From Ruminiclostridium cellulolyticum H10 (lineage in GTDB: Bacteria; Bacillota; Clostridia; Acetivibrionales; DSM-1351): a DNA stretch of 64,000 nt. Positions within the stretch are counted from its first letter, which is position 1; the number at the start of each line of letters is the position of its first letter. Below the pieces are notes generated by a model that ran no database searches, was not told the origin of the DNA, and saw nothing but the letters and a program-made list of their open reading frames with translations. The position numbers were made by a program, and so were the translations under genes. The stretch covers positions 3,599,501 through 3,663,500 of the forward strand of contig NC_011898.1 of NCBI RefSeq assembly GCF_000022065.1. The letters run 5' to 3'. Shown one piece after another: positions 46,499 through 63,529 of this stretch.

Positions 46499-46639
46499 TT
46501 GAAGGAGTACATAGAAGAACGGGTCTTAGAACTCGCAAATTATATCATCGACAAAAGGACAACAGTACGATACGCCGCTAAAAAGTTTGGAATAAGCAAG
46601 AGCACCGTCCACAAGGACGTAACAAAATGGAACGGCTAA
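46499..46639 (+). pseudogene. spoIIID: 5' part of spoIIID, interrupted by the mobile element
   Basis: Reading from TTG at 46499, eight bases after a GGGGGG ribosome-binding site, the frame encodes KEYIEERVLELANYIIDKRT then TVRYAAKKFGISKSTVHKDVT. This is the N-terminal half of SpoIIID, including the helix-turn-helix. After codon 42 homology stops abruptly and the frame ends KWNG-stop. Normal SpoIIID has about 80-90 residues: the missing part contains ERLPxINPxLA and the basic RHxRGGEATxxKYK tail needed for DNA binding. A serine recombinase gene begins 93 bases downstream. The 3' half is expected at the other end of the element, beyond the window. Confidence 0.85.
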
Positions 46640-46731
46640 CTACTTATAATTCAAATGTATTATATCATATTTTTGACATAGTAAAAGGAATATAAACAAT
46701 ATATATTCCCTTTGATGTATTTGCATATATT

Positions 46732-48267
46732 TTAATTTACAAGTTCCAAGTCTTTAAACAATTTAAGGTAAACTTTAATACCACCATCGGTATTTACAAC
46801 AATTTTATCAATAACCTTTTTAAGCATACTGTTATCAATCGTATCAGTGTTTAAAACATCATTTATACTTCCGCAGTACTTTTTGACTATTGCTTCTAAT
46901 CTGTCAAAGGTTGATGTATTCCCCTGAAGGATTGACAATTCAGCTTCAGCTTTTCTTATAGCTTCGTTTATATCAGCGGTTCTCTCTTTAAGTTCTTCTA
47001 TAGAAATTATATCTGCCTCGTACATTTTTGTTTGCTTTAACTTTAACTTTTTTAATCTTTCCAGTTCACTTGTCAAATCGCTTTCATTTGTTTCGCCATG
47101 TCCCAGCTTGTACTTTTTCTTGAATTCATTTATGGTCTTTTCAAGAAGCTTTTCCTTTGATGAAACTACAGTGTTTAAATATTCCTTTATTTCATCTAAT
47201 AGTTCTACTTCATCAACAAGTGTTGTATTACTGCATTGGGTAGCTCCGTCTGAATTTCGGGTGCTACAGCCCCATTTGATATATTCACTGTTTTCTCTCT
47301 TCCTGTAGATTCTTCGGAAACTTCTATCACAACAACCGCACTTGATGAGTGTACTTAAAGCATATTTATTTGAATGTCTTTCCTTCTTTATTTTAAATGT
47401 ATCAACCCTTTGGCCTAATAGCGACTGAGCCTGCTCAAATTCACTTCTACTTATGATTGCTATTTCCGGCTTGTCCACAATGGATTGCCCGCTTTCCTCC
47501 ACTTTAACCCGTTTGCCTGTTAAAAAATCTTCAACTCTCTCTTTACAATTTATTACTTTGCCTGTATAGAGTTCATTTGAAAGTATTCTGCATATAGCGT
47601 TTTGGCTCCAATTACAGTTCCTCTTTGTTTTTATGCATTCCTTATTCAGTATTTGAGAAATCTTATTTGTACCAAATCCCTTGTTAATATACATATCAAA
47701 TATACGCTTGACTATTTCTGCTTCACGAACATTTATCTTAAGATTAAAATAGTCTCCCACTGTCTTGTCATAGCCAAATACAAGGTTTGGTACTTTTCCC
47801 ATCTCTGCATTTTTCTTTTTCCCGAATTTAACTCTTTTTGACAGGTTTGAGCTTTCTTCCTGGGCTACCGCCGCCAAAATTGTCAGTGTAAGCTCCCCAT
47901 CATTTGCAGACATATTTGCTGTGATAAACTGACAATCTATATTCAATGATTTGAGCTTTCTTATACTTTGCAAAAAATCAACAACATTTCTTGCCAGACG
48001 GGATACATCTTTTACGTATACCCTCTCAAAAAGTCCTCTTTCTGCATCCTGCATCATTTTATTGAATTGTTTTCTGTTCTTTAGCTTTGTACCACTTATA
48101 CCTTCATCTGCGTAGAGGGCCACCAATTCAAAGCCCATTTTGTCAGCATATTCTTCAAAAAACTCTTTTTGAGCTTTTAGTGATAAAAGCTGCTCATCCT
48201 TTTCCGTTGATACCCTACAATAAGCGGCAACTCTGATTCTTTTATAACTTGTCCTTATTTCAGTCAA
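46732..48267 (-). CDS. Large serine recombinase (SpoIVCA/TndX type)
   Basis: A 511-residue large serine recombinase. The catalytic domain starts RIRVAAYCRVSTEKDEQ (Ser20 nucleophile) with YVKDVSRLARN. The recombinase domain includes VFGYDKTVGDYF and RILSNELYTGK. A zinc ribbon (CGCCDRSFRR, CSTRNSDGATQC) and a coiled coil follow. The TTG at 48267 is chosen as start because GAGGAGGT precedes it; the frame extends 39 codons upstream over a separate small gene. The gene ends 93 bases from the spoIIID junction, so it is expected to integrate and excise the element. Confidence 0.93.
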   Translation of the reverse strand: MTEIRTSYKRIRVAAYCRVSTEKDEQLLSLKAQKEFFEEYADKMGFELVALYADEGISGTKLKNRKQFNKMMQDAERGLFERVYVKDVSRLARNVVDFLQSIRKLKSLNIDCQFITANMSANDGELTLTILAAVAQEESSNLSKRVKFGKKKNAEMGKVPNLVFGYDKTVGDYFNLKINVREAEIVKRIFDMYINKGFGTNKISQILNKECIKTKRNCNWSQNAICRILSNELYTGKVINCKERVEDFLTGKRVKVEESGQSIVDKPEIAIISRSEFEQAQSLLGQRVDTFKIKKERHSNKYALSTLIKCGCCDRSFRRIYRKRENSEYIKWGCSTRNSDGATQCSNTTLVDEVELLDEIKEYLNTVVSSKEKLLEKTINEFKKKYKLGHGETNESDLTSELERLKKLKLKQTKMYEADIISIEELKERTADINEAIRKAEAELSILQGNTSTFDRLEAIVKKYCGSINDVLNTDTIDNSMLKKVIDKIVVNTDGGIKVYLKLFKDLELVN

Positions 48268-48292
48268 AAGAGTTACCTCCTCAATACTTCTT

Positions 48293-48430
48293 TTAGGCAG
48301 ATTTATTTTTATTATCAGTAATATTTTCGTTCTGAAGCTTATTAATAAGAGCTTGTGCCAGTATTGATGGTAAGATTTTTTCAATGTCAGATGGTAAATT
48401 GGGATCTACAAATTCAATCCTTTTAATCAT
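48293..48430 (-). CDS. Small protein upstream of the recombinase
   Basis: A 45-codon frame starting MIKRIEFVDPNLPSDIEKIL with an ideal GGAGGG ribosome-binding site, ending 26 bases before the recombinase start. It is soluble and mostly helical. Given its position it could be cotranscribed with the recombinase and might act as a recombination directionality or regulatory factor; this is inference. Confidence 0.55.
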   Translation of the reverse strand: MIKRIEFVDPNLPSDIEKILPSILAQALINKLQNENITDNKNKSA

Positions 48431-48521
48431 TTATATTCCCTCCTACAAAATAATTTATTTATAAGATATGTATGTATTTCCTGTTACGGCTATGACTATA
48501 AAAATAAATGTCACAACACAT

Positions 48522-48550
48522 CTATGTACTGAAAAGTATTCAGTACATAG
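48522..48550. repeat. Perfect 12-base inverted repeat upstream of the recombinase operon
   Basis: CTATGTACTGAA (48522-48533) and TTCAGTACATAG (48539-48550) with a five-base gap. It lies about 92 bases upstream of the small gene at 48430, in the promoter region of the recombinase operon. There is no T-run, so an operator or protein-binding site is more likely than a terminator. Confidence 0.5.
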
Positions 48551-49147
48551 TCTATTGTGATAAAAATAATAATCAATTTCGCCAATTCAAACTTCAATTG
48601 TAACTTCCTCGCAGGGTTTAACCTCTTGGCTCCGCTCCGGTATTATCAGCAGCTATTTGTGCTTGGCATATTACCATTATCCATGTGAGCCGCCGAATGC
48701 AGTTCTTTTTATACATGGAACACAAATTAATTGCACTGCTGTACAATTGGCGTTTATATTCCACTCCTCATCTGCTGTCAAATGTTCAAGCAAACCCATC
48801 TCACATTTAACTATTTATTTCCTTTGCTGTTGACGGACGCCTGAGACACCGATACAATTAAGATACCTATACAGTATAATTTGATGACAGAGTTATGTTA
48901 TCAAGGTTCAAAGGGTGGGCGGCAGCACAACGTATGTTAACAGTGTGTTGGTTGTCGCCTTTTTTATTTTCATAAACTGCTATTGCAATTTAGAGGGAAA
49001 CGCCCTATAATTAAAAATATCAAAGGTTACTTTTGAGAGAGTCACCTAAACTTAATAGTTTTTGTAAGAACTATCCGATACTCAGTGGTCGCAACACTGG
49101 GTATTTTTCGTTTTGCGGGTCTTATAACAATTCTTTTATCAGTAAAT
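48551..49147. other. Intergenic region inside the element
   Basis: About 600 bases without a convincing gene. It contains a terminator-like hairpin at 49078-49109 (ATACTCAGTG and CACTGGGTAT arms followed by TTTTTC). An open frame at 49033-49245 on the plus strand runs through that hairpin and was not called. Nothing else is recognised. Confidence 0.4.
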
Positions 49148-49363
49148 TCAATTATTATTTTCATCGGTTTCAAAAAGGTACTCCATTTCAAGCTCTGAAA
49201 AATAAGTATTTTTTATTTTTAAGGCATCTGACCATGGTATTTTAGAAGTTCCATTTAGATAATTTCTTGCAGTTTTTTCACTTATTTCTAAACATTCAGC
49301 AATGTTCAGTTTTGTTATTCTTGGTCTATGCCTTGCCATTTCGGCTAACAAATTATAAAACAT
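49148..49363 (-). CDS. Small helix-turn-helix regulator
   Basis: A 71-residue protein with a helix-turn-helix (ITKLNIAECLEISEKTARNYL, NGTSKIPWSDALKI) and an acidic tail. It is divergent from the XRE gene at 49527. Its promoter (TTGACA, 17 bases, TATAAT on the minus strand, 49404-49432) is consensus and contains an operator in its spacer, so the gene is probably strongly expressed unless repressed. Confidence 0.75.
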   Translation of the reverse strand: MFYNLLAEMARHRPRITKLNIAECLEISEKTARNYLNGTSKIPWSDALKIKNTYFSELEMEYLFETDENNN

Positions 49364-49380
49364 ATATTCCCCACACCTTT

Positions 49381-49463
49381 CCGTTGACGGTTACTTAAAT
49401 AATATTATATTACCGTTAACGGAAAATGTCAATGCTTTATTAGCCACTTTTATCCGTTAACGG
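49381..49463. promoter_or_regulatory. Three palindromic CCGTTAACGG operators
   Basis: CCGTTGACGG (49381-49390, one change), CCGTTAACGG (49413-49422) and CCGTTAACGG (49454-49463) lie between two divergent regulator genes. The middle site is inside the spacer of the leftward promoter, the left site is just downstream of it, and the right site is just upstream of the rightward -35. This is a compact repressor-controlled switch. Confidence 0.75.
49404..49432 (-). promoter_or_regulatory. Consensus sigma-A promoter, leftward
   Basis: On the minus strand TTGACA (49427-49432), 17 bases, TATAAT (49404-49409). The spacer contains the middle CCGTTAACGG operator. Confidence 0.75.
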
Positions 49464-49473
49464 TCAATTTGTG

Positions 49474-49503
49474 TTGACAGATTACAAGTACACAAGATAT
49501 ATT
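49474..49503 (+). promoter_or_regulatory. Sigma-A promoter of the XRE repressor gene
   Basis: TTGACA at 49474-49479, 18 bases, TATATT at 49498-49503, about 24 bases before the ATG at 49527. The rightmost CCGTTAACGG operator ends 10 bases before the -35. Confidence 0.65.
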
Positions 49504-49526
49504 TATACTAATGTGAGGTGAAATTT

Positions 49527-49850
49527 ATGGGACTTGAAGTAATCAATGAATTAAGAAAATTAAAAGGTTTAACATCGGAGCAATTATCTAATCAATCTGG
49601 TGTACCTATTGGGACATTAAATAAAATTTTATCTGGTGTAACCAAAGATCCAAAGTTAGAAACATTGAAAGCTTTGGCTAAAGTTTTGGATTGCAGTCTT
49701 AATGACTTTGATGATAGCAATAATAATAATACCTGTAATAGCAAAACATATTCAGAAGCATTTAAAATATTTCAAATGTTAAATTCTGATTTTCAACGGT
49801 ACGCATTAAATCAAATAAAGTCATTATTAGACTTACAGAATAAATTATGA
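49527..49850 (+). CDS. XRE-family repressor of the element
   Basis: A 107-residue protein with an N-terminal XRE helix-turn-helix (LRKLKGLTSEQLSNQSGVPI, GTLNKILSGVTKDPKLETLK) and an Asn-rich linker, then a helical tail. The ATG at 49527 follows GAGGTG. It is the likely ligand of the CCGTTAACGG sites upstream and would control the divergent regulator gene and element functions. Confidence 0.85.
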   Translation: MGLEVINELRKLKGLTSEQLSNQSGVPIGTLNKILSGVTKDPKLETLKALAKVLDCSLNDFDDSNNNNTCNSKTYSEAFKIFQMLNSDFQRYALNQIKSLLDLQNKL

Positions 49851-50229
49851 AACAACTCTGTTTATTTGCATATCCGTCAGCACTAGAAGAACCTTTTAAA
49901 ATGTTGAAATAATCCTTTTTTATTCAGTCTACAATAATTGTTTTTTATAGTGTAAATTCTCTGTTTCATTTTTCATGTTTAAAGTTCCCTTCAAAATATA
50001 TATTTCGATAAAGAAAACATCCATTTCGATAAGAGATCAAACAAATTCATGTTCAATTGATATATAATTTAATGTTATAATGTGATTATTATAACAAATT
50101 TTTGAATTAATTCCATACAAAGAAATTAACAAAATATTATAAAATTCTCCAAAAATCATTATTTTTTTATATTTAAAGATATATTTTAGGGAAAATGCGT
50201 ATTATAATGTAAATTAAGGTAGGTATAGA
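49851..50229. other. Promoter region of the agr response-regulator gene
   Basis: 379 bases, very AT-rich, no gene. It contains a pair of 9-base direct repeats at 50002-50031 (separate entry) and TATAAT boxes at 50063-50068 and 50203-50208, which could serve as activator-dependent -10 elements. Confidence 0.5.
50002..50031. promoter_or_regulatory. Direct-repeat pair, possible LytTR (AgrA-type) binding site
   Basis: ATTTCGATA at 50002-50010 and again at 50023-50031, separated by 12 bases (period 21). LytTR regulators such as AgrA and ComE bind two 9-base direct repeats with 12-13 bases between them. The sites are upstream of a LytTR regulator gene and about 30 bases before a TATAAT box at 50063. 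Confidence 0.45.
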
Positions 50230-50937
50230 ATGATTAATATCGCTGTTTTGGATGACGAACTCAAATTTATTTATGATTACGAAAATAAAATTCCTGAAAT
50301 ACTGAAAAAGAATAGTATTGAAGGCAGCCTAATAATTGCGACTAATTCAACATCAAAGTTTATTGATACAGTCAAAAGTAATAAAGTGAATGTTTGTATA
50401 TTGGATATTGATTTAAAATCCGATATAACCGGCATGAATATTGCTAATCAATTACGCCAAGAAGATTATCCCTGCGAGATTATTTTTATGACTGGGCATT
50501 ATGAGTATATTAAGGAAGCCTTTAATGTACAAGCATTTAATTTTATACAAAAACCTGGTTGGGATGAACTTGAACGTAATATATTAAAACTATCAAATGA
50601 GGATTTAAAACGGATTTCTAAGAAAACTGTAGGAATTAAATGTGGCTTTGATGTAATTTTTATTAATTTTGATACCATACTATGCATTGAACATGTAGGT
50701 ACTAAAACTACGATACATACAACAACTGGCAGGTATGACACTTATGAGGGACTTGAAGACTTAATTAATAGAATTAATGATAAAAGATTTATAAGATGTC
50801 ACCGTTCAGTATTTATAAATATTAATTATTTGCAAAAAATTGATATTAAAAATAGAGAAATAATGCTTACAGACGGGTCACAATATAAAATAGGGCCAAA
50901 ATATTATCCAGTATTCCAAACTTGGAGGGATTTGTAG
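50230..50937 (+). CDS. agrA: LytTR-family response regulator, AgrA-like
   Basis: A 235-residue response regulator. The receiver domain has IAVLDDE, the phosphoacceptor Asp59 in CILDIDLKSDITGM, and KP near residue 108 (FIQKPGW). The C-terminal LytTR DNA-binding domain includes YEGLEDLINRINDKRFIRCH and RSVFININYLQKI. It overlaps the downstream kinase gene by one base and probably activates element genes on peptide sensing. Confidence 0.88.
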   Translation: MINIAVLDDELKFIYDYENKIPEILKKNSIEGSLIIATNSTSKFIDTVKSNKVNVCILDIDLKSDITGMNIANQLRQEDYPCEIIFMTGHYEYIKEAFNVQAFNFIQKPGWDELERNILKLSNEDLKRISKKTVGIKCGFDVIFINFDTILCIEHVGTKTTIHTTTGRYDTYEGLEDLINRINDKRFIRCHRSVFININYLQKIDIKNREIMLTDGSQYKIGPKYYPVFQTWRDL

Positions 50938-52229
50938 TGCTTATAATCGGTCAATTATTGATTAACACCGTATTTGCTATGATTACTGCCTATTTAACTT
51001 ACATATTTATTAAGAATAATTTTAATATACAAATACAACTAAAATCCTTAGTTGTATTTGTTATTTTCAATGGTATGCTAAGCGGGATTGTATCAACTTT
51101 GTGGATGAGCGTACTTCCTATACCCGGCAATTTACAATTTCTAAAAACAATAATATTAATTATAATAAATATTATAATGTTAAGATACTTTCTACATATT
51201 GAATGGGCTAAAGCTGTTTTGGCTTTTTGTTTGATGACACTTTTTATTGGTATTAGTAATTTCACAGTGCCATTAGTTTTTTATATTTGTGGAATTAATG
51301 CTACCCCGGATATTATAAACAATAATATCCCTTTGTTTGTTCTGATGAATATAGTTATTTATGCAGTAACATTGCTTCTTATTAAGCTTTCCCCTTATGC
51401 TAAAATAATTGGTAATATAAAAAACCTCACTCCTATAGGGTTTTTACTAGTTATTACCATATTGATAATGGCGTCTTTTCTGGGGGTTCATTTCGTTGTT
51501 CATTTTGACCCTGTTTCATTTATTCTTGTACTTCTTTCATCTATTGCATATTTCTTTTTCTCAGTCTGGTATATAAGTATATATCATAAATATGAAATGC
51601 AAAGGGAGGAACGAAACCAGCAAGAATTTTATAACGAATCTCTTGCTAATACACTTCATGATTTAAGACGTATAAAACATGATCAAATGAACCACATATC
51701 AGTTTTATATTCAATGCAGAAAATGAAAAGGTTTGATGAAACTACTTCATATCTTAAAGAAATGTTAGATACAAGCTCAAGTGTTGGAAATACTGCAATC
51801 TATAATATCAAGAATGCGGGGCTTTTTGGATTAATATCAGCTAAAATAAACTTTGCCAAAAGCAATGGAGTAAAAATTAATTTGAAAATTATTGGTATTG
51901 TTGATTCTATTCCATATATAAAAATATCGGAGTTGTGCGAGGTAATAGGAATATATCTTGACAATGCACTGGAAGAAGTTTTAATTAACGGAAAACTAAA
52001 ATTTGATATGCAAATAATAAGTACAGACAGTAACCTTACGATTAGAGTAGATAATCAATGCGATAAATTTCCTAATATAAAAAAATCATCAAAGGGAAAA
52101 GATCGAGGAGACGGGTTAAATATTGCAAATAAAATTATAAGTTCATATAAAAACATTCTAAGTTCAACTTTTTTTGATGAAAGTAGTATGATATTCTCTC
52201 AGGTACTAACAATAGCAAAAGAGGCTTAA
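50937..52229 (+). CDS. agrC: Peptide-sensing histidine kinase, AgrC-like
   Basis: A 430-residue membrane kinase with six or seven N-terminal helices and an HPK10-type cytoplasmic part. The phosphoacceptor region is LHDLRRIKHDQMNHISVLYS (His near residue 250), followed by the GHKL ATPase (IGIYLDNALEEVL, then RGDGLNIANKII). The GTG at 50937 overlaps the agrA stop and has GGAGGG upstream. It is expected to sense the AgrD peptide encoded by the convergent gene at 52244-52378. Confidence 0.87.
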   Translation: MLIIGQLLINTVFAMITAYLTYIFIKNNFNIQIQLKSLVVFVIFNGMLSGIVSTLWMSVLPIPGNLQFLKTIILIIINIIMLRYFLHIEWAKAVLAFCLMTLFIGISNFTVPLVFYICGINATPDIINNNIPLFVLMNIVIYAVTLLLIKLSPYAKIIGNIKNLTPIGFLLVITILIMASFLGVHFVVHFDPVSFILVLLSSIAYFFFSVWYISIYHKYEMQREERNQQEFYNESLANTLHDLRRIKHDQMNHISVLYSMQKMKRFDETTSYLKEMLDTSSSVGNTAIYNIKNAGLFGLISAKINFAKSNGVKINLKIIGIVDSIPYIKISELCEVIGIYLDNALEEVLINGKLKFDMQIISTDSNLTIRVDNQCDKFPNIKKSSKGKDRGDGLNIANKIISSYKNILSSTFFDESSMIFSQVLTIAKEA

Positions 52230-52240
52230 CAGCCTCTTTT
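52217..52240. terminator. Bidirectional terminator between agrC and agrD
   Basis: Perfect 10-base arms AAAAGAGGCT (52217-52226) and AGCCTCTTTT (52231-52240), four-base loop, A and T tracts on both sides. It sits at the convergence of the agrC and agrD genes. Confidence 0.8.
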
Positions 52241-52243
52241 TAC

Positions 52244-52378
52244 TTACTTGAGTAAAGATTTAGGGCATTCTTTTTGATAATAAGACCAGAGCCAACATGC
52301 ACCTGCAGATGCAGTAGCTGCAAATACTCCAACTAGAGATAGAACAGTCAATACCAGTAATTTGATTTTTCCCTTCAT
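52244..52378 (-). CDS. agrD: Cyclic lactone autoinducer peptide precursor, AgrD-like
   Basis: A 44-residue precursor. N-terminal amphipathic/hydrophobic leader (MKGKIKLLVLTVLSLVGVFA), then SAGACWLWSYYQKECPKSLL. The ASxxAGACxWxxYxxExP pattern is that of clostridial AgrD peptides, where the cysteine forms a thiolactone with the ring C-terminus and the Glu/Pro region is removed. It lies directly downstream of an agrB remnant and converges with agrC. Confidence 0.85.
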   Translation of the reverse strand: MKGKIKLLVLTVLSLVGVFAATASAGACWLWSYYQKECPKSLLK

Positions 52379-52430
52379 GTAATTATCCCACCCCTCTTTT
52401 TTTGTTATTTTATACACTATTGGTGTAATG

Positions 52431-52652
52431 TTAACAGTTTATATTATTTTTTATCACCGAAATGATATTTGAGTAAATATTAGGACCTATTAATGTAACT
52501 GTAAAGCATATAACTAATAATATACTACCCTTTATCCTTAACTCCCGTTTTCTTTTTTCAGTAACTATAGGTTTTGACACCCGATCTGCAGGTGCATATA
52601 GAAATGTCAAAATTGCAGATAAAGCGAATAAAACTATATTTAGGAATTTCAT
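52431..52652 (-). pseudogene. agrB: C-terminal fragment of agrB
   Basis: A 73-codon frame (MKFLNIVLFALSAILTFLYA, then PADRVSKPIVTEKRKRELRI and two hydrophobic stretches). The LYAPADxxxKPI...KRxxLRxKS pattern is the C-terminal third of AgrB, the membrane protease that processes AgrD. A stop lies seven codons before this ATG, and the N-terminal region with the catalytic His and Cys is absent. The full-length protein has about 200 residues. The missing part borders the CRISPR array. Confidence 0.7.
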
Positions 52653-52856
52653 ATTAATAATCAGTGCTAGTCATATGGTAGCAAATATGAATGTAAAGTG
52701 GGAAATTAAACATCCGATTTGGGTTTTAGCATACAACCAATCACCACTGTTTACATTTTACACCATTATATCCCTTTTTTCTCTCTTTGTCGATAATATT
52801 TTATTCGTTAGAGTCTTATTAAAGTCTTGTTATAAAATTTATAGTCCTAATGTTTA
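52653..52856. other. AT-rich region between agrB remnant and CRISPR array
   Basis: 204 bases with no convincing gene (a 60-codon plus-strand frame at 52675-52857 lacks a ribosome-binding site). It may hold the upstream promoter of the array in the plus direction and remnants of agrB in other frames. Confidence 0.4.
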
Positions 52857-53423
52857 GTTATAGCTCCGATTCAAGCTCCGATATGCTATAATTAAAAAAT
52901 AAGCAAGCGATGATATGAATGCGTTATAGCTCCAATTCAGGCTCCGATATGCTATAATTATATTTGTAAGCATCATATTCACCAATAAGGTTATAGCTCC
53001 AATTCAGGCTCCGATATGCTATAATTATATTTGTAAGCATCATATTCACCAATAAGGTTATAGCTCCAATTCAGGCTCCGATATGCTATAATTATATTTG
53101 TAAGCATCATATTCACCAATAAGGTTATAGCTCCAATTCAGGCTCCGATATGCTATAATCTATTATCTATATTATAAATTATCATATATGTTATAGCTCC
53201 AATTCAGGCTCCGATATGCTATAATCTATTATCTATATTATAAATTATCATATATGTTATAGCTCCAATTCAGGCTCCGATATGCTATAATGGTAACACG
53301 TTGCTAACAGTGATTAGTTTAGTTATAGCTCCAATTCAGGCTCCGATATGCTATAATCAATTATTATAAGCCGTTAAATGGCAGAAAGTTATAGCTCCAA
53401 TTCAGGCTCCGATATGCTATAAT
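52857..53423 (+). CRISPR. Type II-C CRISPR array, 9 repeats and 8 spacers
   Basis: Nine 36-base repeats start at 52857, 52923, 52990, 53057, 53124, 53190, 53256, 53322 and 53388. They begin GTTATAGCTCC and end GATATGCTATAAT. The first repeat differs at two positions (12 and 18); the other eight are identical. Spacers are 30 or 31 bases. Spacers 2, 3 and 4 are identical (31 bases, starting TATATTTGTAAGC), and spacers 5 and 6 are identical (no G). Only five distinct spacers exist. Each repeat ends in TGCTATAAT, an extended -10 that could start transcription into the following spacer, as in the Neisseria type II-C system. Confidence 0.97.
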
Positions 53424-53430
53424 ACCATTC

Positions 53431-53470
53431 AATAAAAGCTTTGATTTCACAGGATTTTAAAGCTTTTATT
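53431..53470. terminator. Hairpin between array and cas2
   Basis: AATAAAAGCTTT (53431-53442) and its perfect complement (53459-53470) with a 16-base loop. It could end array transcripts from the left or cas transcripts from the right. Only short T tracts follow, so termination strength is uncertain. Confidence 0.45.
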
Positions 53471-53489
53471 GTGCAAAAAAATAAATGTT

Positions 53490-53837
53490 TCATATTAACA
53501 TTCCTTGCCCTTCAATCATTTTTTTATCAATCCATTCATTCGAAGTTTTTTTACCAAGAAGTATAATCATTGATGAATACTGCCTGTCCGTTACTGTCAA
53601 AACTCTCACAGATCCTTTTGCAGGTAAAAAAGTCTTAACTTTATTTACATGTTTTTCGGCCATTTCCGGGCAGGAGCAAACCCTGCAGTATACCGAATAC
53701 TGGATCATGCAAAATCCATCTTTTATTAAATTTCTTCTGAACTTTGTGTAGTTGTCTCGGTCCATTTTTTTCTTAACAGGTAAATCAAAAAATACAAGAA
53801 TTCTCATAAACCTATTTCTCCCTAAAATATCACTCAT
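53490..53837 (-). CDS. cas2: CRISPR adaptation endonuclease Cas2
   Basis: A 115-residue Cas2 with MRILVFFDLPVKKKMDRDNY, RRNLIKDGFCMIQYSVYCRV and FLPAKGSVRVLTVTDRQY. The ferredoxin-like fold bears the conserved Asp in FFDLP. With Cas1 it forms the spacer integration complex. The MSD start at 53837 overlaps the cas1 end by eight bases; a start at 53807 (MRILV) is also possible. Confidence 0.95.
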   Translation of the reverse strand: MSDILGRNRFMRILVFFDLPVKKKMDRDNYTKFRRNLIKDGFCMIQYSVYCRVCSCPEMAEKHVNKVKTFLPAKGSVRVLTVTDRQYSSMIILLGKKTSNEWIDKKMIEGQGMLI

Positions 53838-54726
53838 TTGCATGTACCTCTAATGGTATTATTTCAGGTAATTTCAATAAACTATAATCGTTCTTTGCAC
53901 AAGAACTTGAAAAACTTGAAATCACCTTTTCGATTGCAGACCTTATAGATATTATTTTTCCCTCAAAGACACATTCGTAACCCAACAAACTTATAAGATT
54001 TAACTTATGTTTAGGTGTTAAAAGTGTATCCTCATTTATATTTTGTTTTACCCACATATCAACAATTGGTCTGAACGGTTCGATAAAGTCATCAGCAAGA
54101 TTAAAATTATTCAATTCGCTTCTATGATGTATTCCAATAGAAGGGATAAATCCATACGATGCTATGGTTCTGGCTACAGCTCCCCTTAATATTGAATAGC
54201 CATAGTTTAATGCATAGTTTGTGTTATCCTGCATACCCCTTTTGAAGTTTGTGAATAGAACAGAGAAATAATATTTTGCAGCATGAGCCTCTACATTAGT
54301 TGAATCACCAGATAGAACACTCTTAGATAGATTTATTAATTCATCTCTTCCTTTTAATTCTAGAATATTTAAGCAAAAGGCCTGATTTTCTATTTTCTGT
54401 TGAACAACTCTTTGCCAGCACCTTTTTTTAAAAGGTGCTGAAAGATTTATTTGAGTTTTTACAATTTTGTATTGTCTACTATGACAACTGAATGGAAGAA
54501 GTACTCCATTCGGTGTGTGCTTCCCATCACAAGAATACAAAGCAATGTCTTCTTCTGCCAATTTTGATAATAGTGCGGATGTAATCGTAACATCCGCACT
54601 ATCAAGTACTATTGTATTTATATCATCAATCGGTATACTAAAGCCATCTGATTGTTCAACCCATAAGTTATTCTGTTTTAATTTCAGTTTAGTTGGATTT
54701 GAAACTATTATATTTCTCCATCCCAC
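53830..54726 (-). CDS. cas1: CRISPR integrase Cas1 (type II)
   Basis: A 298-residue Cas1. N-terminal beta domain (GWRNIIVSNPTKLKLKQNNL, IPIDDINTIVLD) and the catalytic helical domain with Glu in NVEAHAAKYYF, His in GIHHRSELNNFNLADDF and Asp in PIVDMW. It catalyses spacer insertion. It overlaps the cas9 3' end by 38 bases and is followed by cas2, with no cas4 or csn2, which defines subtype II-C. Confidence 0.96.
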   Translation of the reverse strand: MGWRNIIVSNPTKLKLKQNNLWVEQSDGFSIPIDDINTIVLDSADVTITSALLSKLAEEDIALYSCDGKHTPNGVLLPFSCHSRQYKIVKTQINLSAPFKKRCWQRVVQQKIENQAFCLNILELKGRDELINLSKSVLSGDSTNVEAHAAKYYFSVLFTNFKRGMQDNTNYALNYGYSILRGAVARTIASYGFIPSIGIHHRSELNNFNLADDFIEPFRPIVDMWVKQNINEDTLLTPKHKLNLISLLGYECVFEGKIISIRSAIEKVISSFSSSCAKNDYSLLKLPEIIPLEVHANE

Positions 54727-57700
54727 GTCTTGGTTCTCCTTTTACTATGCTTTTATTACCAAGTATATCCACATTATATTTTTCAATACTTATTGCTGTC
54801 CTAACTCCAATATCTATTTTAACATTCTTATTATTAGCAAAATGAGGCATTAGGCTCAGGCTACCGGTACCCCTGTGGCAAGATCTATAATAGCCCTCAG
54901 TTATACCCTTTTTAGTTTTTATAACAAGGTAATCATTTTGGTATAGTGAAAAAAGAAATTCATGAGTACTATCAATTAACTCCCATTGAGATTCAGGTTT
55001 CAGAGGAACTATAGCTTTCGAAGGTAACTCTTTTTTTATCATATGTGCTACATATATTGGCACAAGGTAATACTTATCTTTTTTCTTAAATACATCAACC
55101 CTAACCATTAAGGAATTATCAGATATCCCCTTTCCTTCATTTCTGAATACTCCTGTATATGATGGTGTCTCAACTCGAATACTCCTAATTATTGCACCGT
55201 TTGTACCATTTTTTAGTGGTTTATATATTTTTTCAGCAAAAGCTTTTAATGGCTTATTATTATGCTCTATTAATCTATTTTTTAGAACGTTATATACTGC
55301 CTTATCTGAAATTCCCCCTTTTGTATTTTTTACCATTGTCTCAAGTTTTTCCAACGTCACTGTTGTTAACGGTATTTTTACCGAAGTTAAACCTTTGTTA
55401 AAATGCTTGGGAGATCTGATTGTCTCATCATGGGCTGGCCCGGTAATTTTTCTTCTGGGTGCCCGGGATATGAAAACACCTGCTAACGTTTCCATTAAAT
55501 CTTGCCTAAACGAATGCCAAGGCAAAGGATATTTAACTTTATAATTATGGTTTTCTCTTTCATTATAATAGTTTGTTATTTCTTTAATTATTTTTCTATC
55601 TGCACACGCAATTACTGCTGCATCAAGGGCATGATGCAGGTCTGACTCTTCTCGATTTTTATTTAACCCCCATCTACTTCTAAGCTGAGCGGTACACTGA
55701 CCATTAACGCAGACCACACAAGACTTAGGTGAATCATTACTAAACTGCAGATACGATTCTATATAGTTTTTTAAAAACCTTGATATATACCTAGTATCGT
55801 TAAGATTTCTTGAAATAAATGAGTCCAAATCTTTTGTAATAAAGTTTCTGTTCAAAAGCCTTTTTTCTTTACTTTGAGGTAAATGCATAGAATATATTCT
55901 TGCCTCAAAATCCTCCCATTTTTCAGTTGACCCCCATACTTCATATGGCGTATAACTTCTTTTATTTTGATTTTCGTCGGTTAAAACTAAAACTTTATTC
56001 ATATATGAATCGTCCATACTTCTACTATACGGATAAATGTGATCTATCTGAGTCAGTGAGTCATTCAATAAATCACAAACAGGAATTGGTTTGCCGGAAT
56101 AAGCACATCTTCCGCCCTGGTCTTCCCAAAGACGCCATTTCAGTATATCCAGACCACTTGCAACTCTACCATTTTGGCGTATTAGGTCTGATATTTTTTC
56201 CCTTGCTTTTCGGTTGTTTTCATGTTCTTTTTTTAAATTATCTCTATCCTGACGTGTCATTCCCGCTTCACGTGCAAGTTCTATATTTACCATATACGGG
56301 AGACCATACTTCTGTATAATCGCATTTATAACTTTCCTTGCTTGCGTCAGAGCCCTTATTACAACTGGATTAGTTACATTCTCAATAATTGGTTCAACAG
56401 TTAACTTATTACACTTTTCAAGTTTGCTGGAACCTGTAAAATCTAATTCCGCCATATTACAGGCATCACTATATTTATACCCTTTTTCCATAAACGGAAT
56501 AATCCTTTTCATGGCAACTAAAGATAGATGTTTAAATTTGTTGAAAGTTGGCAATTTTGCTATATATTCAATTAAATAATCAAGATTATTCGCTTGTAAA
56601 TAGTCCTTTATTTCGTTATCGTTTTTATAGACCGTAAGGCAGTAAAAAAGATTATCAAGAGATTCCTTGTTAGAATGCAATTTCCCCCAGATGTCTGTAG
56701 GTAATGTGCTTTTCAGTTTATGATAAGACTTCATTTCATAAAACTTTTTGCTCTCATTGTTTCCTGAGGGATTTTTGTGTGTCAAATTATGTGCTTTGAA
56801 TAAAATTTCAGGTTCAATATCTAATAATTTTCTTATTTCAGAATACTTGATTTCATTCTTGAAATGAGCATATTCTATTATTTTTGCTCTTTGATCATTA
56901 TTTAATGTTAATGTATTGTTATCTTCAACCAAAACTAGATTGTTAATCGATTGAAGTAATCCAAAATATTCTGATGTGTAACAGGAAGTCGGTGCTCTCA
57001 ACTCCTCCTTTAGCAGGGTACACTTTCCCACTTTTGAAAGTATACTATCACCACTGGCAAAAGGACGTTGAAATTCCCATATATTCAAAAAGTCATGTTC
57101 TAATTTTTCAGTTACAAAGGGGCTTCCAAGCTTTCTTTGTATACTAAATATATATTTTATTTCATTGAGAAGATCTTCTCTGGCAATAGTGTGAATATAC
57201 TCGTCTACCTTATTCCTTTTGTTACTATTTTCAGGAGTCTCCATAAAAATCATTTCTCCAATAGTACGGTAATTTTTCGTACGAAGCATCTCAGAATTGT
57301 TTTTAATACTAGTTATAACTACACCTTCTTTTGTAGTAGACAAGTCTTCCTTTCTGTTACTTTTAAAGCCTCTTCTCTTAGTAATATGTGTAAGTACCTG
57401 AACAAGTTCATAAGGTTTAAGTATTCTTGATAAAGCATTATACCTTAATTCCCAAGGATCTTTCCACCCATCCCGCGAAGTGTCAAATATCCGGTTAAAT
57501 TCACTTGAATCTTTAATAATTTCATATTGAACAAACAGTTTTTTAACTAAACGTAGCCTTTGGGATCTTCTCGAAATTCTTCTTCTCATACCTCTAGCTA
57601 TCCTTCTAGCTGTTGCAAGTGACTCACCCGTTTTAGATTCCTCTGCTTTATCAAAACATCTAACTCCTAAGTCAATAATTTTATTATTATCCTTATCAAT

Positions 57701-57754
57701 TACCGCCCAACCTACAGAAGCAATTCCAACATCAAGACCTAATGTATATTTCAT
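54689..57754 (-). CDS. cas9: CRISPR effector nuclease Cas9 (subtype II-C)
   Basis: A 1021-residue RNA-guided DNA endonuclease. RuvC-I is KYTLGLDVGIASVGWAV (Asp8). The Arg-rich bridge helix follows (ATARRIARGMRRRISRRSQR, residues 47-66). RuvC-II is MVNIELAREAG (Glu492), HNH is QIDHIYPYSRSMDD (His572), and RuvC-III is SDLHHALDAAVIACAD (His708, Asp711). The catalytic residues look intact. The ATG at 57754 has GGAGGT upstream; an extra 16 codons upstream overlap the tracrRNA. Size and sequence resemble the characterised R. cellulolyticum Cas9 (1021 residues), as remembered. Confidence 0.97.
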   Translation of the reverse strand: MKYTLGLDVGIASVGWAVIDKDNNKIIDLGVRCFDKAEESKTGESLATARRIARGMRRRISRRSQRLRLVKKLFVQYEIIKDSSEFNRIFDTSRDGWKDPWELRYNALSRILKPYELVQVLTHITKRRGFKSNRKEDLSTTKEGVVITSIKNNSEMLRTKNYRTIGEMIFMETPENSNKRNKVDEYIHTIAREDLLNEIKYIFSIQRKLGSPFVTEKLEHDFLNIWEFQRPFASGDSILSKVGKCTLLKEELRAPTSCYTSEYFGLLQSINNLVLVEDNNTLTLNNDQRAKIIEYAHFKNEIKYSEIRKLLDIEPEILFKAHNLTHKNPSGNNESKKFYEMKSYHKLKSTLPTDIWGKLHSNKESLDNLFYCLTVYKNDNEIKDYLQANNLDYLIEYIAKLPTFNKFKHLSLVAMKRIIPFMEKGYKYSDACNMAELDFTGSSKLEKCNKLTVEPIIENVTNPVVIRALTQARKVINAIIQKYGLPYMVNIELAREAGMTRQDRDNLKKEHENNRKAREKISDLIRQNGRVASGLDILKWRLWEDQGGRCAYSGKPIPVCDLLNDSLTQIDHIYPYSRSMDDSYMNKVLVLTDENQNKRSYTPYEVWGSTEKWEDFEARIYSMHLPQSKEKRLLNRNFITKDLDSFISRNLNDTRYISRFLKNYIESYLQFSNDSPKSCVVCVNGQCTAQLRSRWGLNKNREESDLHHALDAAVIACADRKIIKEITNYYNERENHNYKVKYPLPWHSFRQDLMETLAGVFISRAPRRKITGPAHDETIRSPKHFNKGLTSVKIPLTTVTLEKLETMVKNTKGGISDKAVYNVLKNRLIEHNNKPLKAFAEKIYKPLKNGTNGAIIRSIRVETPSYTGVFRNEGKGISDNSLMVRVDVFKKKDKYYLVPIYVAHMIKKELPSKAIVPLKPESQWELIDSTHEFLFSLYQNDYLVIKTKKGITEGYYRSCHRGTGSLSLMPHFANNKNVKIDIGVRTAISIEKYNVDILGNKSIVKGEPRRGMEKYNSFKSN

Positions 57755-57781
57755 ATATAATTTACCTCCGAAAAATGTCAT

Positions 57782-57895
57782 AAAAACAAGATACCCCAGC
57801 AATAAATGCCGGGGTTAACTTGGCGGTCTGGGCTAAACCCAGCACCTTATTATAGCAACAATTCAGGCTCCGATATGCCATAATTTACTATAATA
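57782..57895 (-). ncRNA. tracrRNA
   Basis: On the minus strand upstream of cas9, an anti-repeat at 57849-57884 matches the CRISPR repeat complement with four differences. It is followed by AAGGTGCTGGG, TTTAGCCCAGACCGCC, a short hairpin, and a terminator hairpin (57794-57814, CCCCGGCA and TGCTGGGG arms) with a T-rich tail. The layout matches type II-C tracrRNAs such as that of Neisseria. The end coordinates are estimates. It pairs with crRNA and binds Cas9. Confidence 0.87.
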
Positions 57896-57900
57896 GTTAT

Positions 57901-57928
57901 ATTATATCACATAAAAGTAACATTACAA
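57901..57928 (-). promoter_or_regulatory. Promoter of tracrRNA
   Basis: On the minus strand TTGTAA (57923-57928), a 16-base spacer and TATAAT (57901-57906), with TGTGA before the -10. It predicts a transcript start near 57895, just before the anti-repeat. Confidence 0.6.
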
Positions 57929-58225
57929 TACCTACGTTCATAAGAAATTATATCCACAAACTACGACCCTCAAATAGTACTTAAATAGCTTCGAAGTTCA
58001 TTTTTTGCAAGAATAACCTTTATGTTTTTTTGCTAATTCTATAGCTGCTAAACTATGTTATGATTGGAAATTGAAATCTTGCTAGGTAGGGCTAATTTCA
58101 CAATATTTGGCTTCTTGCTATTAATCAATACATAACACTATTAGTTGATTCTTTAATTGTTACTAATAAATTGGAAAATACTTTTTGCCCACTATACTGA
58201 ATTTTACCTAAATATTCGAATCCAA
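57929..58225. other. Region with no recognised feature
   Basis: About 300 AT-rich bases upstream of the tracrRNA promoter. No coding frame, repeat or RNA was recognised. Confidence 0.5.
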
Positions 58226-58413
58226 TCAATCCATGTTGCAGGGTCTGTTACATATTGATTTACTTTCCATTTTATAGTTTATATAAAAACTATTTTCAAT
58301 GGATTTATATGTACTTTTTAGTCCCTGAACGGCATCATCGAAAACATAAACTTCAGCGAGTTCTTTCAAAGCGACACAAATTTTACATCCTGAGCCTAAA
58401 ATTTTATAACCAT
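58226..58413 (-). pseudogene. Frameshifted thioredoxin-like redox protein remnant
   Basis: An ATG at 58413, seven bases after GGAGTG, starts MVIK, but the frame must shift by one base in the run AAAATTTT to continue as KILGSGCKICVALKEL. That is the N-terminal signature of small thioredoxin-fold proteins (KILGSGCxxCxxLE). Homology fades after VYVFDDAV. The frameshift at a short A/T run, with a good ribosome-binding site still in place, points to recent decay. Confidence 0.5.
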
Positions 58414-58871
58414 CTAATATCACTCCTAGATATATTTTAGTTATTAAAAGCCAAGATAAGTGTACCCATCAAGATTCTTAGTGTTTACTGGCACTGCCAT
58501 ATTTTTTACTTGATCATAATGAACTCCATGTACAGCTATGTTTAGCATTGTCAAACAAATAATCGAAAAATTTCAAAGAAGCAATAATCGATTTTCTACA
58601 TTTTGAAAAATTAGTTAGCAGTCATTATCATCTAGTATTTTATTTGTATCTTCAGCAATATGCATACAATTCCATATACATAATACCCTCTAGCCTCCCA
58701 TTATACCATACTAACCATTAACTGGGGTACCGCCAACATTTCCGACACCCTCGTTTAAGGATAAATTGAGTATAGAACCCATTTTTCACTTCAATTTCCA
58801 CAAACTTTACTGTTTCCAATAAATCACATATAATAGATGTTATTAAGTAACAAATAAGGGGGAGTTTTTTA
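58414..58871. other. Region with one copy of a 29-base inverted repeat
   Basis: No gene seen. It contains the left copy of an inverted repeat at 58719-58747 whose partner is at 60232-60260 (separate entry), and the promoter region of the membrane protein gene. Confidence 0.45.
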
Positions 58872-59129
58872 ATGCAAAAGATTGTTAACAAATTAAAGGT
58901 TTTAGCAATAATTATATATTTGTTTCCTATACTCTTTGTTTCTATTTTTACACAAAGTATAGATTATTTTTTACTAAGCACAGGAATAATGACTATATTA
59001 TTAGGCCTATGTATGAATTTCGCCCCACATTACTTGGGTTACAACAAGAGTGCAGACAAATATCATTCTTCGACTTTTATAGGAATATCAGGAATATTGT
59101 TATTATTGCTTTATACGATGGGGTTATGA
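58872..59129 (+). CDS. Small membrane protein
   Basis: An 85-residue protein with GGGGAG before the ATG and three predicted helices (VLAIIIYLFPILFVSIFTQ, FLLSTGIMTILLGLCMNFA, FIGISGILLLLLYTMGL). No family is recognised. It is convergent with the secreted protein gene at 59214, separated by a strong shared terminator; an immunity role for that protein is possible but unproven. Confidence 0.65.
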   Translation: MQKIVNKLKVLAIIIYLFPILFVSIFTQSIDYFLLSTGIMTILLGLCMNFAPHYLGYNKSADKYHSSTFIGISGILLLLLYTMGL

Positions 59130-59158
59130 AATATTATTCAATTTATTAAAATTAATAA

Positions 59159-59205
59159 ACTAAAAAGGTCTACCATAAGTAATCCTTATGGTAGACCTTT
59201 TTAGT
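59159..59205. terminator. Strong bidirectional terminator
   Basis: Perfect 21-base arms (59159-59179 and 59185-59205) with a five-base loop TAATC and A/T tracts on both flanks, between two convergent genes. Confidence 0.85.
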
Positions 59206-59213
59206 ATGAATTT

Positions 59214-59783
59214 TTAGAATGTTATGGTTGCAAATTCAGATCCAAGTGAAAATTGTAAATTTACTAAAGCATTTTCTATAACAAGTGCACCACCGATAAT
59301 AGCAGCTACAGGTGCAGTTACAGTAATACCGGCAATTGCTGCAATTGCAAAACCTACAGTAGCAGAACCTCCACCTAAATTCAATACTTCTTTTATAATA
59401 TTCCAACCTGCTTTATTAAACATAAGTTGCCCATGAAGGGGAGAAGGCATGCTGCTATAAACAATAACAGCACCAGTAGATTGATTATAATAGTTAGTAT
59501 GTATTGTCCCAGCGTTAGAATTGGAGGAAGAACTGTCAGCATATTTTTCTACAATTGCCGTTACTTGTTCGGAATAATCCATTGTTATTGATTTATCCTT
59601 AACTAACTGTTCTAATACATCTTTAACTTTTTCTTCATCAATCTGAGTAGAATCTGCTACTTTGTTCTGAGTAATAGTGGTTACAGAGCTATCCTCATTA
59701 GAAGCTGCAAAACTTTGAACACTAAAAGCAAATAAAATACATAGAACCAAAACAAGTGAAGTAACTTTCTTAAATCTTAACAT
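59214..59783 (-). CDS. Secreted protein with Gly/Ala-rich hydrophobic C-terminus
   Basis: A 189-residue protein with a clear signal peptide (VTSLVLVLCILFAFSVQSFA, cleavage after ASA-like site), an acidic Ser/Thr-rich region and a hydrophobic C-terminal domain (GGGSATVGFAIAAIAGITVT, APVAAIIGGALVIENALV). The glycine-zipper-like end suggests membrane insertion, as in some bacteriocins or pore formers, but no family is recognised. GGAGATTAATT precedes the ATG. Confidence 0.65.
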   Translation of the reverse strand: MLRFKKVTSLVLVLCILFAFSVQSFAASNEDSSVTTITQNKVADSTQIDEEKVKDVLEQLVKDKSITMDYSEQVTAIVEKYADSSSSNSNAGTIHTNYYNQSTGAVIVYSSMPSPLHGQLMFNKAGWNIIKEVLNLGGGSATVGFAIAAIAGITVTAPVAAIIGGALVIENALVNLQFSLGSEFATITF

Positions 59784-59900
59784 AATTAATCTCCTTTACA
59801 TTGGTTTTTATTGATTTTCACATATACATATATTTACATATTTAAATATATTTGTCAATATATTCAATTCAATAACCAATGAAAATTTTGGTGCTAGTAA

Positions 59901-60284
59901 ACAAAGCCGATTGCGCAATTTAAACTTTCATCAGACTCCTGGAAACAGAACAGAATTATAAATATTGAGAATACCAGTGACAGTGGTAATATAGCTCTCG
60001 TTTTGGCTAAATATCCAATTAAAACAAGTAGCTTTATTTTGACAGATGAGAATGGTAAACCAGTTCCGCTTAATGAACCATTACAGTACAAAGAATCTGG
60101 TACCCATTCCCTCACTCTTAAATGTCAAAACACATTGGGTAAATGGTCAGACCCTTACACTGTGGAATTTGAAGTGTTTGAGGACATTGCACCAAATATC
60201 GAATTGAATCTGATGGACAAAACGTGGTATTTGTCGGAAATGTTGGAGGTACCCCAGTTATATTCTACCAAAATTAATTCGTAA
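59901..60284 (+). pseudogene. Fragment of an Ig-like surface protein
   Basis: An open frame from 59901 with no plausible start encodes PIKTSSFILTDENGKPVPLN, YKESGTHSLTLKCQN and PYTVEFEVFEDIAPNIELN, the pattern of a bacterial Ig-like repeat. It runs into the right copy of the 29-base inverted repeat at 60232 and stops at 60284. The beginning and end are missing, so it is likely a remnant truncated by an insertion sequence. Confidence 0.5.
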
Positions 60285-60465
60285 AATATAAAAGTTCATC
60301 CCTGATATAATTTAACCATAGCGAATATTGTCAATCACCCTAATGCTGTATCCTTTTATTTACCGGCAAGACTTACCCATGTTTTCCGAAACTACGACAA
60401 AGGATCTCCAACATAGTCACCTAACCATTACTGCATAAATATACATACTTTCTTTTTCAGTAACC

Positions 60466-61206
60466 CTAGTTAAATGGATAAGTTCCTGGGGGGTCGCCCA
60501 TGACCTCCCCCCGGTTCATTTTCTTAAATATATTTAAATTTTGGTAGTGGATTTTTTGATTAAGAGACTTAAACCAGTATAACACTCTGCTTTTTGAACA
60601 ATTTATATATTTACTAAGCTTGAAGCGATTGGCAGTTATTTTAATCTTTTCAAATTGAGGTTTCGCACTGCTTGTAGTTTCATTAAAAATATGTACTTCT
60701 CCCAAGTTATCAATAGTATTTGCCCCTGGTTCTTCAAATGAATTATTTTCATCGTTTTTTTGCTCTCTATTATCCTGCTCGTTTTTATACACGGATGTCG
60801 TACATGGACGAGCTGGTTCATTGTATTCAGATTCTGAAAAAGAAATATCCTCCTGGAGTGAACCAGACATTTCAAATTGGGCTTGATCCACTTCGTTTTC
60901 AGCTTCATATTTTGATATTTCTTCAAAATTGCAGGGCATTATCTTATATAAATTTGAGGTTTGACCTCCGTCCTTCCTGAATCGTGGAGTCCGTTCTACT
61001 GCTCCGTATTTACACAGTTCTCTCATGGCTCTTTTTATTGTTGAGATTGATTTGCCCACTATCTGAGCGATTCTGTTTAGCGATGGAAAACAGGTTTGAT
61101 TAGTGTTATCTGCATGTTTGCACAGACAAAGATATACGAACCTTGCACTTTGGGATACGATACTTCCTTTAAAACAAATACTGTCAAAAGCCTCATTCAT
61201 GTACAT
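60466..61206 (-). CDS. Helix-turn-helix replication/transfer-type protein
   Basis: A 246-residue protein with an N-terminal winged helix (IVSQSARFVYLCLCKHADNT, CFPSLNRIAQIVGKSISTIK and RAMRELCKYGAVERTPRF, an HTH_36-like domain) and a low-complexity acidic middle. Such proteins occur at the start of conjugative element replication or transfer modules. ATG 61206 is chosen because GGAGG lies 11 bases upstream; an earlier ATG at 61254 is also open. Confidence 0.7.
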   Translation of the reverse strand: MYMNEAFDSICFKGSIVSQSARFVYLCLCKHADNTNQTCFPSLNRIAQIVGKSISTIKRAMRELCKYGAVERTPRFRKDGGQTSNLYKIMPCNFEEISKYEAENEVDQAQFEMSGSLQEDISFSESEYNEPARPCTTSVYKNEQDNREQKNDENNSFEEPGANTIDNLGEVHIFNETTSSAKPQFEKIKITANRFKLSKYINCSKSRVLYWFKSLNQKIHYQNLNIFKKMNRGEVMGDPPGTYPFN

Positions 61207-61282
61207 ATTTATATAAGCCTCCATTTTTTTCTGTAGTAATTGATAAGGCCCCATGAAGTTTTACTCATGGAGCCTTGATAAT

Positions 61283-62416: not shown

Positions 62417-62573
62417 ATGGACTCACCTGACTTTCTATTGTTGTTTTTGCCGGACTATCTACGTGTACCGGCTTTTTATCATAGGGTTTATTTATAAAAT
62501 ACAGGACTATAAATATAATGCTAAGTGCTGCGTAGAACAGCAACTCAAGCACTTTGTTTGTGCTATTTTTCAA
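62391..62573 (-). CDS. Small single-pass membrane protein
   Basis: A 60-residue protein with one helix (LELLFYAALSIIFIVLYFIN) and a short basic/proline tail. It lies 12 bases downstream of the peptidase gene and overlaps the ATPase gene. A role in the transfer apparatus is only suggested by position. Confidence 0.6.
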   Translation of the reverse strand: MKNSTNKVLELLFYAALSIIFIVLYFINKPYDKKPVHVDSPAKTTIESQVSPYDALPMQP

Positions 62574-62584
62574 GTTTCTCCCTC

Positions 62585-63517: not shown

Positions 63518-63529
63518 TATAATTCACCT

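Follow-up and report, generated by a model that had tools for sequence, protein, structure and literature searches.

Elements that interrupt sporulation genes have been described in sigK, spoVFB, spoVR, spsM, gerE, kamA, yabG and, as one paper prints it, spoIVFB in the accessible portions of the literature (PMC6957869, PMC4191935, PMC10747680, PMC5595907, PMC5025042). In the skin element of sigK, found in B. subtilis and C. difficile, DNA bearing a large serine recombinase (LSR) splits the gene of a mother-cell regulator, the two gene halves lie in the same orientation with a short shared core, and excision rebuilds sigK. In C. difficile, the recombination directionality factor (RDF) CD1234 is produced under the control of σE and SpoIIID, which limits skin excision to the mother cell, as given in the available text of PMC5025042. 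The gin element, in gerE of B. cereus ATCC 10987, is a non-prophage element in a very small mother-cell regulator gene and uses a serine recombinase with a small extra factor (GirC, GirX); it is 28.6 kb long, has a 9-bp core and encodes three recombinases, and the accessible part of its description mentions no conjugation genes. SPβ in spsM, vfbin in spoVFB, vrin in spoVR and yin in yabG likewise intervene in sporulation genes, and the available excerpts describe them as prophages or prophage-like, with targets that are not early regulators. In cyanobacteria, developmental excision of the heterocyst nifD, fdxN and hupL elements rebuilds other genes in the differentiating cell (PMC6957869, in the accessible text). 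Earlier descriptions of sporulation-gene elements were mostly made strain by strain, in sigK or later genes. No spoIIID-intervening element was found in the literature searched, mostly papers open without subscription, and the author of the sequence-only reading of this DNA knew of none; spoIIID is reported to be one of the genes that distinguish two Anaerostipes hadrus strains (PMC12888040, available in part).

The element examined here, from Ruminiclostridium cellulolyticum H10 (G000), resembles the skin in bearing an LSR, in splitting a mother-cell regulator gene and in its same-orientation halves with a short shared core. Its LSR and a neighboring small ORF may be likened to the GirC and GirX pair of gin, the target being a very small gene in both. 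Judged from its genes and junctions, it differs from the known skin type in its target, its predicted ICE-type body and its spread at one dinucleotide. The target, spoIIID, stands one step earlier in the cascade than sigK, SpoIIID acting before σK, and the 65-kb body is ICE-like, whereas the skin is a prophage remnant. Unlike excision of the C. difficile skin, excision from spoIIID cannot need SpoIIID.

The window, a stretch of 64,000 nucleotides, covers bases 3599501–3663500 of the one-contig H10 genome (4,068,724 bp). The features at the junction, in window positions, were as follows:

46499–46639, + strand: spoIIID N-terminal part, 42 SpoIIID residues, then KWNG and a stop (PF12116 positions 1–42, 68.6 bits)
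46607–46623, + strand: attL core GTCCACAAGGACGTAAC, 17 bp (genome position 3646107); the same 17 bp lies at genome position 3710874 (attR, outside the window)
46610–46611, + strand: predicted crossover dinucleotide CA in the His38 codon, at the center of the attP inverted repeat and common to 15 joined loci
46610–64000, + strand: the part of the element within the window; the total is 64,767 bp, and the right end, like the C part of spoIIID (from genome position 3710874), lies outside
46619–46633, + strand: attP right arm GTAACAAAATGGAAC, whose inverted partner GTTCCATTTTGTTAC directly precedes the C part of spoIIID at attR
46732–48267, − strand: LSR, 511 aa, 3′ end facing attL (PF00239, PF07508, PF13408)
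48293–48430, − strand: 45-aa ORF directly upstream of the LSR, with a strong ribosome-binding site, a candidate RDF; similar ORFs precede related recombinases

The sequence-only reading had placed the first 42 residues of SpoIIID in a frame starting at TTG 46499, with homology breaking off at 46624, the frame ending four codons later and an LSR directly beside the junction and facing it. All of this was borne out. TTG 46499 starts a 46-aa frame whose score to PF12116 marks it as real SpoIIID and not a chance match, and the match to intact orthologues ends with the 17-bp core. The 3′ end of the LSR lies ~0.1 kb from the junction, and the protein carries the Resolvase, Recombinase and Zn-ribbon domains, all three of LSRs. 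The other half of the gene, predicted to lie in the same orientation at the far end, was found there. A PF12116 search of the whole H10 genome gave two matches on the same strand, the N part and a C part (profile positions 35–81, 76 bits) that begins beyond the window, at 111374 in window numbering. The halves lie 64,767 bp apart and bound a single element, one at either end, and the predicted att core is present at both junctions. A second intact spoIIID was sought in the one-contig genome, and no third PF12116 match was found at E ≤ 0.001.

Joined at the core, the two halves encode an 82-aa product scoring 139.8 bits to PF12116, vs. 137.3–139.6 bits for the intact orthologues of the genus. 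The rebuilt gene differs from intact spoIIID of G006 at six synonymous codons and one nonsynonymous codon and from that of G005 at nine and one, respectively. The N part includes most of the helix-turn-helix region; in the integrated state, the predicted SpoIIID is cut at this region and lacks its basic tail. Same-orientation halves, a shared core, exact rebuilding, an LSR inside and no intact copy found in the genome together make up the skin-like arrangement that had been proposed, and on these sequence features the H10 element classes with skin-type elements.

The sister genome G005, with an intact spoIIID, appears from its collinearity to provide a sound empty-site comparison. Its left side is collinear with H10 for ~6 kb to the core end, with gaps, and its right side is collinear from the core start beyond the element, so that the two overlap by 17 bp. 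Then follow 4.4 kb of other DNA and the next right-hand neighbors of H10 in the same orientation. G005 was chosen because the outer neighbors in G004, G006 and G007 lie the other way round. G006 was set aside as an empty site, being collinear only over the gene, ~160 bp upstream and ~60 bp downstream. Relative to these outer neighbors, spoIIID is inverted in G004 (L158 6898–7340), G006 and G007 compared with H10 and G005, which by gene order is a small inversion around the locus within the genus. The attP reconstructed for H10 contains a 15-bp perfect inverted repeat, GTTCCATTTTGTTAC / GTAACAAAATGGAAC, centered on the CA of the His38 codon.

The recurrence of split spoIIID was investigated by PF12116 searches of 58 genomes of the order, 391 of the class and 398 of the phylum (the last at E ≤ 1e-9), which gave matches in 54, 280 and 324 genomes, respectively. 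Within the order, separate N and C parts were present in G000, G009 (R. sufflavum DSM 19573, of the same genus as H10), G025, G026, G046 and, besides an intact copy, G030; further fragments occurred in G002 and G016, both with an intact copy, and in G050. Candidates in the class were chosen by each genome's best E-value, which was weaker than 1e-24 in 15 of 280. G177 turned out to hold one near-full match, and the remaining 14 candidates, G000 and G009 among them, had no full-length match, 10 having both parts and four having one. G177 and G062 were rejected as split cases on account of single near-full or full matches. Two more split cases, G609 and G622, are labeled outside the class. These counts are lower bounds, as G449 has its gene in two pieces despite a better E-value (4.3e-28). 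Genome annotation may label spoIIID missing or truncated where the gene is split.

We assembled 15 joined loci: G000, G009, Marasmitruncus, G026, G025, G030, G342, G335, G622, G398, G046, G609, G104, G116 and G352. Kept out were G294 and G360 (N part frameshifted), G449 (5.9 kb between the N and C fragments, and no LSR of the spoIIID-linked family seen), G002, G016 and G712 (an intact gene plus fragments) and the one-sided G282, G221, G146, G205, G497 and G050. Both halves were on one contig and the same strand in nine of the joined loci and on two contigs in the other six. Over all split genomes, element sizes ran from ~5.9 kb up to the ICE-like 65 kb. The CA at the His38 codon was present on both sides in every joined locus (15/15), and each gave a stop-free frame of 82–94 aa. 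Because both halves keep homologous codons up to the CA, they would join in frame in any case; the telling point is that neither half contained a stop or frameshift. The start codon fell at aligned codon 1 in 13 loci, one codon upstream in G352 and two in G116. One small early regulator gene has been struck at the same two base pairs across many spore-former families, by related recombinases.

Among 25 half-base offsets tried, the attP inverted repeat was best centered exactly on the CA in 14 of the 15 loci, where 13–20 of 25 positions paired vs. shuffled means of 6.3–8.6, and at most 0.4% of 2000 shuffles did as well. At the same place in the host attB, 5–10 of 25 positions paired. The exception was G030, whose attP pairs at 9 of 25 positions and whose element bears its own full second spoIIID directly after attL (L028 6457–6696). 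Since a spare spoIIID would make excision no longer needed, the symmetry of this attP may have decayed; this single case fits excision with relaxed selection for it.

Several loci departed from the H10 arrangement. In G009, the ParA/ParB side is at attL and the LSR at attR, so that the body is reversed relative to spoIIID compared with H10, and the core orientation is kept. Marasmitruncus massiliensis was considered as a counter-example, with a 65% LSR and no spoIIID within 10 kb; its gene proved to be split, with halves 125 kb apart and the LSR within this interval, 36 kb from the C part. Nested or rearranged elements are perhaps present there (L154–L156, L033). In G002 (L022 6659–10675), the intact spoIIID is followed at ~2.3 and ~3.7 kb by two vestigial attR/C-part copies, which are separated by a two-gene ATPase pair; from their position, these copies are likely relics of earlier insertions. 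The N parts of G294 and G360 (L082, L083) have apparently the same one-base frameshift after an A run, which may mark a pseudogene or programmed slippage. A mixture of excised and integrated DNA could explain the contig ends near the junctions of G221, G398, G294 and G360, a sign too weak to count.

An LSR of the spoIIID-linked family was found in 14 of the 15 joined loci; none was seen in G398, where contigs end near the junction. It lay within ~150 bp of the C part and read toward it in 10 (G025, G030, G046, G104, G116, G342, G352, G335, G609 and G622) and lay ~1.8 kb and ~2.4 kb from the C part in G026 and G009, respectively. The H10 LSR is at the attL end, and most others are at attR. In the order, an LSR at E ≤ 1e-70 occurred in six of 58 genomes, the same six that have separate N and C parts, a coincidence expected by chance about once in 40 million if relatedness is ignored.

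LSRs integrate their DNA unaided, and recombination of attL with attR needs an RDF. The 45-aa protein preceding the H10 LSR is probably this factor, judging from its position. Small ORFs precede most spoIIID-linked LSRs and, by eye, are alike within each LSR branch; none was picked up in G104, and the contig of G335 starts too close to the LSR. Homology of the 45-aa ORF to a known RDF was sought in Pfam and PHROG and none was found; as a group, these small ORFs matched no Pfam family, and PHROG matches had E-values of 0.06 or worse. With defined attB and attP sites and candidate RDFs, this LSR family may be of practical use.

In the class, the LSR search gave matches in 31 of 391 genomes, with at most three candidates per genome scored. 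Eight of these genomes are split at spoIIID (in G282, only the C part was seen). G127 has an LSR of the spoIIID clade and no spoIIID match, and the LSR of G622, 83% identical to it, adjoins a spoIIID C part; G127 might be a site that has lost spoIIID. More distant LSRs (41–44%) in G359, G179, G091 and G090 immediately precede the C-terminal part of a different conserved protein. The other 18 matches showed lower identity or were roughly half-length, and no spoIIID was seen in the 600 bases downstream of the five read by eye. G104 also carries a broken second copy of the LSR in front of a different gene. The conserved protein beside the LSRs of G359 (L133), G091 (L135), G090 (L136) and G179 (L137) reads VEVVDPI...LLIPAYDFCIPEKEC...FPVDEFFPP and had no Pfam or NCBIfam match in the two scanned; it is probably the product of another interrupted gene, perhaps of sporulation.

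A tree of 25 LSR sequences, drawn up without G609 and G622, split 13 spoIIID-linked LSRs from those of G359, G179, G091 and G090 by one branch (support 86/95, 96% of 200 bootstraps), with the G127 LSR among the spoIIID-linked ones. The LSR of G046, from the order of H10, grouped with those of G104, G116 and G352 of other orders (100/100), and the LSRs of G046 and G609, which are assigned to different classes, are 86% identical. This points to horizontal movement, and the latter identity is a hint that such elements were transferred in the past. Searches for the LSR in viral contigs and, at E ≤ 1e-60, in plasmids found none.

The body of the element was characterized by a Pfam scan of 30 of the 73 ORFs called in or beside it. 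The features within the window were as follows:

52854–53423, no strand: CRISPR array of nine repeats, three adjacent repeat-spacer units being identical
53490–53837, − strand: cas2 (PF09827)
53830–54726, − strand: cas1 (PF01867)
54689–57754, − strand: cas9
60466–61206, − strand: HTH_36 protein (PF13730), probably of a replication or transfer region
62585–63517, − strand: M23 peptidase (PF01551), putatively of the conjugation module
63530–64000, − strand: 3′ end of a TraG/VirB4-like ATPase gene (Pfam), which continues past the window

The CRISPR-Cas9 system (52854–57754) is of Type II; two other repeat-spacer units of its array are identical too. Past the window, the element encodes TrbL, VirD4 (T4SS-DNA_transf), a MobL relaxase, ParA, ParB, an N6/N4 methylase and a 2077-aa helicase/methylase. 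The components of an ICE are thus present (LSR and att sites, MobL relaxase, VirD4 coupling protein, TraG P-loop ATPase and TrbL), and no phage structural families were found among the 30 proteins scanned. By this gene content, the element appears ICE-like rather than prophage-like. GC content was rejected as a marker, the element (35.9%) not being set apart from its flanks (37.2% and 36.7%).

We consider it highly probable that this 64.8-kb ICE-like element with CRISPR-Cas9 cargo intervenes in spoIIID, that its own LSR inserted it at the CA in the codon for His38, and that excision by the LSR and an RDF rebuilds the gene, likely in the mother cell early in σE activity. The LSR and its directionality factor, probably the 45-aa protein, would recombine attL with attR, the element would leave as a circle and the 82-aa spoIIID would be rebuilt exactly, with the spore chromosome keeping the element. 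The mother cell would have to produce the 45-aa protein under σE control and independently of SpoIIID. The Ccel_ locus tags of the C. cellulolyticum sporulation paper are presumably those of H10. Wild-type C. cellulolyticum formed heat-resistant spores at 35.7 ± 7.3% in the accessible text (PMC3936895); if the strain is the same and SpoIIID matters, spoIIID must therefore be rebuilt. Excision in the mother cell and a dependence of sporulation on the element are what we infer from this arrangement. The dependence should be held with caution, since sporulation of a C. difficile spoIIID mutant was less severely affected than that of sigE or sigK mutants, according to the available part of PMC5025042.

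The timing could be otherwise. The element might behave as an ordinary ICE and leave only rarely, in vegetative or stressed cells, with SpoIIID made only in excised or cured cells and no developmental timing. Its gene set is of the ICE type, and in a scan for σE-type promoters before the operon of the 45-aa ORF and the LSR, 80 of 200 shuffles did as well as H10; across 12 elements, the same scan was matched by seven of 200 shuffles or fewer in only four, a result that speaks neither for nor against σE control. The yin element of yabG was also found excised at all time points tested, in the accessible text of PMC10747680. Yet, provided that SpoIIID is needed at all, rare excision would hardly give a heat survival as high as 35.7% (PMC3936895, in part), and the available text of PMC6957869 has sporulation-gene elements leave in the mother cell and places nearly all of them in mother-cell genes. 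We consider this account unlikely.

Less likely still is a dead insertion, with spoIIID permanently broken and the organism living without SpoIIID. The comparatively mild C. difficile mutant would suit such a loss (PMC5025042, in part), and some splits may indeed be dead, because the N parts of G294 and G360 are frameshifted. The joined loci argue otherwise: their halves are free of stops in all 15, att symmetry is kept in 14 of them, and codon changes are mostly synonymous in both halves of G000 and G009. The sole locus with a spare spoIIID, G030, is also the one whose attP symmetry has decayed. That the truncated 46-aa N part works alone, the insertion being only regulatory, we regard as extremely improbable; most of the helix-turn-helix region is present and preserved in it, but the C part is likewise preserved in all 15 joined loci.

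The sigK gene of H10 is split as well, its parts (3–115 and 102–226) lying on the same strand 6.6 kb apart around a skin element (G000:C1:498635–505944; L092 2636–9945). This element has its own LSR, which falls far from the spoIIID-linked family in the tree. Among 11 genomes of the genus, both sigK parts were detected in nine at the threshold used, one part in G008 and an intact gene in G002; in G001 and G003, one part was read through stops. Both spoIIID and sigK are split in G000, G009, G025, G026, G342 and, alongside a spare spoIIID, G030, and sigK looks intact in G046, G104, G116, G335, G352, G398 and G282. Should skin excision depend on SpoIIID here, as it does in C. difficile, one excision would have to follow the other. 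We tentatively propose, at somewhat less than even chances, that mother-cell excisions are serial, with spoIIID rebuilt and SpoIIID then licensing skin excision and σK, and that an LSR family specialized on one CA within the DNA-recognition codons of spoIIID makes this gene, across Clostridia and neighboring classes, an insertion hot spot and an addiction site of mobile elements, some of them conjugative. Early mother-cell regulation by DNA excision and the ordering of two excisions in series can now be tested, as can the maintenance in a population of a putatively conjugative CRISPR-Cas9 element through a gene needed only in a dying cell. By eye, the cargo of the H10 sigK element includes a 663-aa carbon monoxide dehydrogenase-like protein and ABC-transporter genes.
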